A stretch of 64,000 nucleotides of DNA from Thermococcus barophilus MP (GTDB taxonomy: Archaea > Methanobacteriota_B > Thermococci > Thermococcales > Thermococcaceae). Shown here piece by piece: positions 42,485 through 60,698 of the stretch (the stretch's first letter is position 1; each line of letters begins with the position of its first letter). Below the pieces are notes generated by a model. That model did not search any database. It saw only the letters and a list, made by a program, of their open reading frames with translations, and was not told the origin of the DNA. The DNA is taken from assembly GCF_000151105.2 (NCBI RefSeq), contig NC_014804.1:62001-126000 (forward strand), read 5' to 3'. The translations under genes and the position numbers were made by a program.

Positions 42485-42572
42485 GCGGGGGTTGCCGAGC
42501 CTGGTCAAAGGCGCGGGATTCAGGGTCCCGTCCCGCAGGGGTTCCGGGGTTCAAATCCCCGCCCCCGCACCA
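42485..42572 (+). tRNA. tRNA-Leu (CAG)
   Basis: The acceptor stem pairs GCGGGGG with CCCCCGC; the anticodon stem CGGGA/TCCCG encloses loop TTCAGGG with anticodon CAG; a long variable arm is present; the T arm is CGGGG-TTCAAAT-CCCCG; and ACCA is encoded. It sits between rpoD and rpl18e on the same strand and is probably cut from their common transcript. Confidence 0.96.
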
Positions 42573-56922: not shown

Positions 56923-59799
56923 TTACTCAATAAACACCGCAGGCTTCATCGGCATTGCCTGTTTAGCTTTTCCACCCTTGTCCTCCTCTGGATTAATGAT
57001 TATTTCTAAGCCAAGCTCTTTCTCAATGAAGTCTTTTGCTTCTTTCAATGCTTTTTCCTCATCAATGCGCTTTATCTCAAAAGCCCTCTCCTTAATCAGC
57101 TTGTTCACCAAGCTTGCAACTTCTTTGCCCTTCTTTCTCATCTCTGGATCCTTCATGACTTCGCTCATCACGGCTTTAAAGTCTCTCTTCTCTGCGACAA
57201 TCTCAGCAACCTTCCACTTCCACTCTGGGGCAGTGTAGATGTAAGCCCTCTTTGCATCTTCCAGCTTTGCAACCCTTATGATTTCCTTAATGTCCTCAAT
57301 CAGCGACTTAATGTAATTTTCTTCCAGCTCTATTGTTTCGTTCCACCACTCTGGATTTGGCTCAGGCCACTTAGCCAGACTGACAAATCCATCTCCGCCC
57401 AACTTTTCCCACAGCTCCTCACAGATATGCGGTGTAAACGGTGCCATCAGGCGAACCCATACATCTGCCAGTGTTCTCAAGACATAGCGCTTTGCTTCGT
57501 CGTCTCTGCCTTCAGTTCTCCTCATGTACCATCTCAAGTCGTTCAATATGCTGTAGAATGCCCACTGGACAGCAGTCCTTGTTCTGAATTCTTCCAAGGC
57601 TTTAGTTGCTCCCTCAATTGCCTTATTTATGCGGTGCAGCATCCACTTGTCAATGTCTTTCAGCTCGGCTGGCTTCGCATCATATTCTGCAAATTCGCTT
57701 ATCAGCTCATAGAACCTCTCCAGCTGTCCTTTCAGCTTTGATACCTCTTTGCTCCTCCAGTCAAAGTCGCTGTCATGCTCAGCCAGGCTCATTATGTACA
57801 GCCTCACAACATCGGCTCCGTTCTCATTTATTGCATCAATGAAGTTCAGCACGTTTCCTTTGCTCTTGCTCATCTTTTTGCCTTCCAGCGTTCCGTAGCC
57901 GTTGACGGCTATTCCCTTTGGCCAGTACTTCTTGTCAAAGATTGCTACATGGTTGAAGACGAAGAACGTCAGGTGGTTTGGGATTAGGTCCTTAGCGGAA
58001 CATCTCCAGTCCAGCGGATACCAGTACTCAAATTCCTCCTTCATTTCCTTGATTACCTCTGCTGGGATTCCAGTCTTGTTACTCAGTTCCTTCTCTTTCT
58101 CTCCGCTCCTCTCTTCCAAGAAAATGTAATCGAACAGCTCTGGAATCAGTTGCTCCCCTTTGATGCCGTACTTGTTAATAGCTCTTGAGATTGTATAGTA
58201 AGCCATGTAAATCGTCGAATCGCTCAAGCTCTCAATCACCCATTCTGGATCCCAAGGTAGCGGGGTCCCCAGTCCAATCTTTCTGGCACATGCCTTCTTC
58301 TCTATCCAATCAAACACCGCTCTAAACTGGGCTCTCCTTGACTCTGGAATTATTTTCATCTGCTCCAAGCACTCAAAAGCCTTAGCTTTCCACTCTGGGT
58401 TTCCATAGTCAATGAACCACTGGTCGTGGATTATCTTAACCACAGCTCTGTTTCCAAATCTTGAAATAACATTCTTATCTGCGAACTCGTACATAATATC
58501 GGCGATTCCTTTCTTCTTCATGTCTTCGGCAACTAAGTCCTTGACTTTGCTGACTGGAATGCCCTTGTACGGCTCAATCTTGAAGATGCCCTTATGGTAT
58601 TCAGCCTTGTATATTGTTTTTGTTGCCTGCTCCAGCTTTTCTTTATCCTCTTGACTTTTTACTCCCAATTTTTCTGCTTCCTCAACTGCTGGGAACTCGC
58701 CGTAGCCTTCCAGCTCAATCAGCGAGATGTATGTGATGTTTTCGACGATTCTTGGGTCAATATCGTATTTCAGCAGAATCTCTGTGTTTCTCTTTAAATC
58801 TTCTAAGGCGGCATGATCAAATGGAGCATGCGCTGGAACGCTCATAACGACACCTGTTGCATTATCTGGATCTACGAAATCTGCTGGTAGAATTATTACC
58901 TCATCTCCAGTGACGGGATTCTTAACCCACTTGCCTATCAGCTTCTCCCCCTTGAACTCCTCCAAGACTTCAATCTCTTTATCTTGGAAGCTCAGCTTAT
59001 ATGCTGCCTCTTTGCTGACTATCCACGTCTCTTCCTTCCCTTTGTATTTCACTTTAGCTTTGACATATGTGGCATTGGGATTCAGCCACATGTTGGTTAC
59101 TCCGTAAACTGTCTCTGGCCTCAGTGTTGCAGCTGGTAAGTAGATAATCTCACCATTCTCCTCCAAGATGAACTTAATCAGGATGTACTCCAAAATTGGA
59201 ACATCTTCTCCATCCATTAAATCGTGGTCACCGAGCGGAGTGCCGACTACGGGATCCCACCTAACCCTGTGGGCTCCCTTGACTATCAGTCCTTTCTCTT
59301 TCAGCCTCAAGAACTGCCAAGTTATGAAGGCGTTAAACTGTGGATGCAGAGAAGTTGTGTGAAACTCTCTACTCCAGTCAACGCTGAATCCAGCCCTAAT
59401 GAATGTCTCTTTTGCTGCTTTCATGAAGTATTTGACGATGTTTATTGGGTCTTCAAACGTCCACAGAATTTCTTCCGGTACTTTGTAAACGTCTCTGTAA
59501 ACGAAAATCGTCTGAGGATCGCGGTGCTTTATTCTTTCAGCAATTCCAACTATTGGAGAACCTGTGATGTGCCATGCCATTGGGAACAGGACATTGTAGC
59601 CCTGCATTCTCTTGAATCTCGCTATAACATCTGGGATTGTGTACGTCCTTGCGTGCCCAACGTGCAGATGCCCTGATAGGTATGGGAAAGCAACTGTAAT
59701 GTAGAACTTTGGCTTATTTCTATCTATCTTTGGCTCAAAGATTTTCTCTTCGTTCCACTTCTTCTGCCACTTCTCCTCAATAGCCCTAAAATCTACCAT
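56923..59799 (-). CDS. leuS: leucyl-tRNA synthetase
   Basis: A 958-aa archaeal/eukaryotic-type LeuRS. The HIGH-type motif is [18 protein letters not shown] near residue 40; the CP1 editing domain has the Thr-rich [30 protein letters not shown] holds KMSKS; and a C-terminal helical tRNA-binding domain follows, ending in [16 protein letters not shown] lies 7 nt upstream of the ATG on this strand, an unusually full Shine-Dalgarno site. It is divergent from rpl15e. Confidence 0.97.
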
Positions 59800-60008: not shown

Positions 60009-60019
60009 ACTTTTAAAAA
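60009..60019 (+). promoter_or_regulatory. TATA box of rpl15e
   Basis: acttttaaaaa, about 25 bp upstream of the first base of the GC-rich leader element, so transcription should start near 60035-60042. Confidence 0.55.
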
Positions 60020-60034
60020 CTCAGACTCTAAACT

Positions 60035-60107
60035 CACCTCGACCAGGCGGGGGAAACCCGCGGGATGTTCCGCTCTGCGGAGAACCACAAACAGCGAAAG
60101 CGAGGTG
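60035..60107 (+). promoter_or_regulatory. GC-rich structured leader of rpl15e
   Basis: A 73-nt island, much richer in G+C than its surroundings. CACCTCG (60035-60041) is complementary to CGAGGTG (60101-60107), which is the ribosome-binding site of rpl15e. Inside are a GCGGG-ggaaa-CCCGC hairpin, a TCCGC-tct-GCGGA hairpin and a GCGAAAGC tetraloop. It may be an autoregulatory leader or a small RNA. The rest of 59815-60034 holds only promoter signals. Confidence 0.6.
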
Positions 60108-60113
60108 GAAGGA

Positions 60114-60698
60114 ATGGGAATGTACAAATACATTAGGGAAGCTTGGAAGAGCCCAAAGAAAAGCTATGTTGGACAGCTTTTGAAGGTTAGAATGATTAAG
60201 TGGAGAAGGGAGCCAAGCGTTGTTAGGATTGAGAGACCAACAAGGCTTGACAGAGCAAGGAGCTTAGGCTATCAGGCAAAGCAGGGTTATGTGATCGTTA
60301 GGGTTAGAGTTAGGAGAGGAGGAAGAAAGAGGCCCAGGTGGAGGGGCGGTAGAAAGCCAAGCAAGATGGGTATGGTAAAGTACTCACCAAAGAAGTCTTT
60401 GCAATGGATTGCCGAGGAAAAGGCAGCAAGAAAGTTCCCCAACCTTGAGGTGCTCAACTCCTACTGGGTTGGCGAGGATGGAATGTACAAGTGGTTTGAG
60501 GTTATAATGGTCGATCCGCACCACCCAGTCATTAAGTCTGATCCTAAGATAGCTTGGATTGCAATGAAGGTTCACAAGGGCAGAGTCTTTAGAGGCCTCA
60601 CAAGTGCGGGTAAGAAGTCAAGAGGACTTAGAAACAAGGGCAAGGGTGCTGAGAAAGTCAGACCAAGCATTAGAGCAAATAAGGGTAAGGGCAAGTGA
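60114..60698 (+). CDS. rpl15e: 50S ribosomal protein L15e (eL15)
   Basis: A 194-aa L15e with [20 protein letters not shown], then [40 protein letters not shown] and [20 protein letters not shown]. It binds 23S rRNA. It is the first gene of the archaeal exosome superoperon in many genomes. ATG 60114 is preceded by GAGGTGGAAGGA; the longer frame upstream runs through the structured leader and is not coding. Confidence 0.97.

Follow-up and report, generated by a model that had tools for sequence, protein, structure and literature searches.

A probable autoregulatory leader of the eL15 gene in Thermococcus barophilus and its strand-swapped likeness to 23S rRNA

The DNA directly upstream of rpl15e, the gene for ribosomal protein eL15, in the 64,000-nucleotide stretch of Thermococcus barophilus analysed here (the window) contains a homologue of the eL15-Euryarchaeota ribosomal protein leader (Rfam RF03144), an already published kind of RNA. 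It is read, with a probability of roughly 0.8, as a cis-regulatory leader of the eL15 gene in an mRNA starting at G60041, in which surplus eL15 would bind a loop resembling one in 23S rRNA and block the ribosome-binding site. Homology to the known leader, a structure kept by compensatory changes, tight linkage to rpl15e and a sequence match to 23S rRNA are all observed. To our knowledge, archaea have few known regulators that act at the RNA level. What is new here is modest, namely the strand-swapped 23S match, an archaeal spread below the Rfam threshold and a Pyrococcus variant lacking the first hairpin. The pairing of the leader with its own ribosome-binding site, which was the new claim of the preliminary description of this region, is probably wrong.

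Genomic context of the rpl15e leader

The T. barophilus genome (Thermococcales) comprises 2,064,237 bases in two contigs. In the window, rpl15e (60114..60698, plus strand) encodes a protein of 194 amino acids followed by a stop codon and matches Pfam PF00827 Ribosomal_L15e (302 bits, E 1.6e-90). Between rpl15e and a divergent minus-strand open reading frame (56923-59799), which we take to encode leucyl-tRNA synthetase, lies an AT-rich intergenic region whose final 80 bases form a GC island. This island has a G+C content of 64%, whereas the window as a whole has 42.7% and the intergenic DNA leading up to the island 37%. Of eight such islands in the window, the rpl15e leader island is the sole one outside open reading frames and tRNA genes, and it is real and functional. 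A separate observation from the same window is a tRNA-Leu (CAG) at 42485-42572, detected by ARAGORN and missed by the default Rfam scan.

GC islands often mark non-coding RNA genes in AT-rich hyperthermophiles, and an ACA trinucleotide follows the core of the element described below. Both would suit an independent small RNA, of the H/ACA, HGC or another type, that overlaps the rpl15e promoter region by chance, and an H/ACA or HGC small RNA had indeed been proposed. No snoRNA or HGC family was matched at E <= 10 in a sensitive Rfam scan, however, only one promoter is apparent, and the element is always found just 5' of rpl15e, tied to it in cis across the family. An independent small RNA is therefore extremely improbable, and the proposal is set aside in favour of a leader of rpl15e itself.

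Relationship to RF03144

RF03144 was published in 2020 by Eckert and Weinberg, with eL15 as the proposed ligand, in a paper whose consulted portions describe none of its archaeal ribosomal leaders as experimentally tested there (PMC7247131). In the sensitive scan the family is matched at 60047-60091 on the plus strand, directly 5' of rpl15e and on the same strand, over the full length of the model (positions 1-48 of 48), with 33.2 bits and E 1.7e-4. This score misses the RF03144 gathering cut-off of 33.7 bits by 0.5 bits, which is why the window copy is absent from the default Rfam scan; the cut-off is the curators' reporting threshold and not a biological feature. The window leader is thus an RF03144 homologue on features other than score, and not a formal Rfam hit. 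These features, common to both, are the location upstream of rpl15e, the two hairpins, the GAUGU/GAA core, the proposed eL15 ligand and the idea of rRNA imitation. The window copy differs from its RF03144 sister copies in a P1 loop one nucleotide longer than in most of its genus.

Near-identical leaders (L002, L005 and L006) score 35.7 bits, and scores of 34-43 bits are reached at the equivalent site in sister genomes. RF03144 is found above the cut-off in 13 of 20 loci from the first relatives. Most of the Thermococcaceae genomes examined have it at the equivalent position relative to rpl15e. Across the phylum it is detected in 86 of 115 genomes at E <= 0.1, 81 of them above the cut-off, all in Thermococcaceae. 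The control genomes with RF03144 are those of Haloferax and Methanosarcina. A lower threshold or a rebuilt Rfam model would recover leaders that are now missed, the window copy included.

Promoter and predicted transcription start

The promoter map of P. furiosus places a TATA box of the form WTTTAAAW at -30 to -23 and a pyrimidine-purine step at -1/+1 (PMC6640164), and the rpl15e TATA box TTTTAAAA (60011..60018, plus strand) fits this consensus. With that spacing the predicted transcription start is the G of CGAC at 60041 (plus strand), where a pyrimidine-purine step falls exactly at +1. The AAA at 60030-60032, around -10, agrees with the A-rich element reported at -10 in T. onnurineus (PMC5316973). 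In 59 of 64 leaders the conserved GAC lies 25-26 nt from the centre of the TATA box. No measured rpl15e start was found in the papers searched, and by promoter geometry G60041 is the most likely first nucleotide of the mRNA, giving a predicted 5' untranslated region of 73 nt (60041..60113, plus strand). The GC island had been described as beginning where transcription begins; P. furiosus spacing instead puts the predicted +1 6 nt downstream of its described start at 60035.

Since promoter spacing places +1 at G60041, the six nucleotides CACCTC (60035..60040, plus strand) should be promoter DNA and not RNA. They had been proposed as part of an arm pairing with the ribosome-binding site and are most likely positions -6 to -1 of the promoter, a reading also backed by the negative within-clade swap test given next.

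Pairing between the island's 5' end and the ribosome-binding site

CACCTCG (60035-60041) and CGAGGTG (60101-60107, plus strand), the latter including the ribosome-binding site and lying 6 nt 5' of the ATG at 60114 and 14 nt 3' of the core, are exact 7-nt complements in the DNA. A complement as long occurs in 3.2% of shuffled 5' segments. The complementarity noted in the preliminary description therefore stands at the DNA level, while the RNA helix drawn from it probably does not, given a 5' arm that is predicted to be untranscribed and the lack of within-clade covariation.

An RNA beginning at 60035 or earlier could form CACCUCG:CGAGGUG and hide the ribosome-binding site until the helix is opened. 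Such an anti-ribosome-binding-site switch would draw on the exact 7-bp complement, on modelling in which the site, if the arm is transcribed, is predominantly paired at 37 C and roughly half so at 85 C, on 5' segments of the CGAGGTG group that pair better than composition-shuffled ones (-11.6 vs -7.0 kcal/mol), and on outer-helix covariation in the pooled leader set that is mildly above shuffles. With +1 predicted at G60041, however, only one of the seven arm nucleotides would be in the RNA and the other six would be untranscribed. The covariation signal is also gone within clades, where swapped 5' and 3' segments are as good as true pairs in 372 of 1000 swaps for the CGAGGTG group and 371 of 1000 for the remaining leaders, so that the pooled excess reflects differences between clades. 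Among leaders with the CGAGGTG site the 5' arm is CACCTCG, CACCACG (with one A-A mismatch), CACCTTG or CACCCCC; as the 3' arm stays constant while the 5' arm varies, there is no compensation between the arms. Most Thermococcus and Pyrococcus relatives do not have the 7-bp version of the pairing. Three leaders (L026, L087 and L090) retain CACCACG next to a different ribosome-binding site, and the 5' sequence must then be kept for a reason other than pairing, probably promoter function or common descent. The switch is accordingly improbable, and the helix 60035-60041/60101-60107 probably never forms in RNA. It was rejected as a candidate structural element after the clade-restricted swaps and the promoter map had removed its positive pooled signal.

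Two hairpins and a conserved core

The 80-nt island folds with -30.9 kcal/mol (z = -2.3; 5 of 200 shuffles equally good), and both of the hairpins previously described between the arms are present. Hairpin P1, GCGGG-GGAAA-CCCGC (60047..60061, plus strand), is 100% paired in 40 aligned leaders, with a G-C pair replaced by U-A in seven of them. It is followed by the core, GG-GAUGU-(UCCGC UCU GCGGA)-GAA-CC (60062..60086, plus strand), which is likely the eL15-binding module. The P2 pairs show double changes among the same 40 leaders, and P1 and P2 together have 95% of cells paired (91% in shuffles) and a covariation score of 0.089 (0.025 in shuffles). The loop formed by 5'-GAUGU-3' and 5'-GAA-3' is invariant among the aligned Thermococcaceae leaders. 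Over 19 diverse archaeal leaders, covariation of the core reaches 0.58 vs 0.19 in shuffles, with none of 500 shuffles as good, and every slid register of the core pairs scores worse; the loop-closing pair in this set is GU, UA, CG, GC or AU. Compensatory changes thus underlie P1, P2 and the core, and within clades none were found for the outer arms.

In four leaders of the Pyrococcus group (L011, L015, L017 and L019) P1 is absent and the lower stem of the core is extended to CGUGG/CCACG or CCGG/CCGG; these leaders give no RF03144 match or one of only 26 bits. The lengthening of the lower stem where P1 is missing argues for genuine pairing of the lower GG/CC, with P1 probably serving mainly as a stacking partner. 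The GNRA tetraloop once listed as a feature, GC-GAAA-GC, has a stem of only 2 bp and is not conserved, the relatives having GCAAACGC, GCAAAAAC, GTGAAGGAC or GTAAAGAAC.

When the RNA is folded from the predicted +1 at 37 C, the lowest-energy structure joins CCAC (60085-60088), in the 3' part of the leader, to GUGG in the ribosome-binding site. This arrangement competes with the lower stem of the core, and eL15 binding would in that case open the site. At 85 C the model no longer forms the pairing, and the ribosome-binding sites of several relatives have no GUGG, which makes an opening role for eL15 very improbable.

A strand-swapped counterpart in 23S rRNA domain I

Domain I of T. barophilus 23S rRNA contains CAAACU-GAA-CCCUGGGUG-GAAA-CACCCAGGG-GAUGU-GGUGUUG (nt about 253-296), in which GAA and GAUGU face each other across an internal loop. 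Read in swapped strand order, ACU-GAA-CCC...GGG-GAUGU-GGU of the 23S rRNA carries the internal loop of the leader core, and because this loop is present in archaeal 23S domain I, rRNA mimicry is favoured. The likeness covers the GAA/GAUGU loop, the flanking GGG/CCC on one side and, opposite, the closing G-U pair that other archaeal leaders have. The two differ in that the terminal hairpin of the 23S rRNA lies on the CCC/GGG side, whereas that of the leader lies on the opposite one, and the window copy has U-A next to the loop instead of G-U.

Of six archaeal 23S genes examined, five contain this loop, and the sixth (L166) has lost the intervening stem. The long version of the match (GGGAUGUGG and CUGAACC within 60 nt) arises in 1 of 5000 dinucleotide-shuffled 23S sequences and the short-arm version in 16 of 5000, counts that are somewhat generous, as the arms were chosen from the Rfam-type consensus after the match had been seen. 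As to further mimicry, looking in 23S for GACUAGG, ACAAACAG or AUAAACAG letter for letter gave no convincing match.

Eckert and Weinberg mention a possible but unclear similarity of RF03144 to a bulged-G module present where eL15 binds rRNA; in the consulted portions of their paper this similarity is called partial, and the strand-swapped 23S match is absent from that text (PMC7247131). The match would turn a hedged published idea of rRNA mimicry into one that is testable at a handful of nucleotides. In yeast, eL15 reportedly joins domain I early (PMC12825303). The papers searched gave no description of eL15 contacts in archaeal ribosomes. Judged from the sequence comparison, the leader core appears to mimic the region where eL15 docks on rRNA.

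Proposed mode of regulation

In the proposed mechanism P1 would stack on the second hairpin, whose GAUGU/GAA internal loop would reproduce the domain I loop with its strands swapped. When eL15 is in excess of free 23S rRNA, it would bind this loop, and the bound protein would occlude the ribosome-binding site 14 nt downstream. This would lower the translation of eL15 itself, most likely as classical autogenous control. Such a scheme, in which a ribosomal protein binds an rRNA-like site within the mRNA that encodes it, is that of the bacterial autogenous leaders of L20 and S15, which are unrelated in sequence to the eL15 leader. We know of no bacterial counterpart of eL15, a protein of archaea and eukaryotes. 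The suggestion of an L15e autoregulatory leader mimicking 23S rRNA, made from the window alone, is very probably right in view of RF03144 and the strand-swapped core in domain I.

The core could alternatively be a kink-turn-like element bound by L7Ae and not by eL15, given that the internal loop of this Thermococcus leader is asymmetric and contains G and A residues and that T. kodakarensis transcripts with L7Ae-type sites have been reported (PMC4247193). By our reading, however, the loop does not have the tandem G-A pairs that a standard kink-turn would show; it matches the 23S domain I loop instead, and the core goes with the eL15 gene across archaeal lineages. L7Ae as the ligand is consequently quite improbable, and eL15 remains the preferred one.

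Distribution in other archaea

Of 57 eL15 loci from other archaea, 16 have the core and its flanking pairs in the 200 nt preceding the gene, against a mean of 0.2 in dinucleotide shuffles, and none has them on the reverse strand. A single-family RF03144 search of 18 genomes gave matches in 13 at E <= 1, only one of them above the cut-off. Such a single-family search was needed, as an all-family Rfam scan at E <= 0.01 of 20 mixed loci returned no RF03144.

The core adjoins the ribosome-binding site in most lineages, lying by our estimate from the sequences within about 20 nt of it. In the Methanothermococcus-type leaders (L108, L110, L111 and L116) it is found 77-83 nt before the start codon, and a simple steric block would for this reason fail there. 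A AATTTTTT tract after the core is seen in L108, L110 and L111, where control could be by transcription termination rather than by blocking of the ribosome-binding site.

Taken as a whole, the eL15 leader may be a circularly permuted, strand-swapped mimic of the GAA/GAUGU loop in 23S domain I that is older and more widespread than RF03144 reports, reaching the Methanococcales, Methanomassiliicoccales, Thermoplasmata and relatives, with some Pyrococcus having exchanged P1 for a longer lower stem; the odds on this broader reading are about even.

Two further observations concern individual genomes. The L026 leader (genome G011) is apparently chimeric, with promoter and P1 as in its own genus but a core hairpin and ribosome-binding site like those of other Thermococcus. 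In that genome a second eL15 fragment of 50 codons with 86% identity (G011:C1:692522-692671) lies ~9 kb downstream, which suggests that the gene was replaced and that the fragment is what is left of the old eL15 copy. The nanohaloarchaeal loci L134, L136 and L137 have CCCAGGAUGUGGCGC...GCGCUGAACGG right before the ribosome-binding site, with a related but rearranged lower stem, and the genomes of L134 and L137 give weak partial RF03144 matches (E about 0.4).
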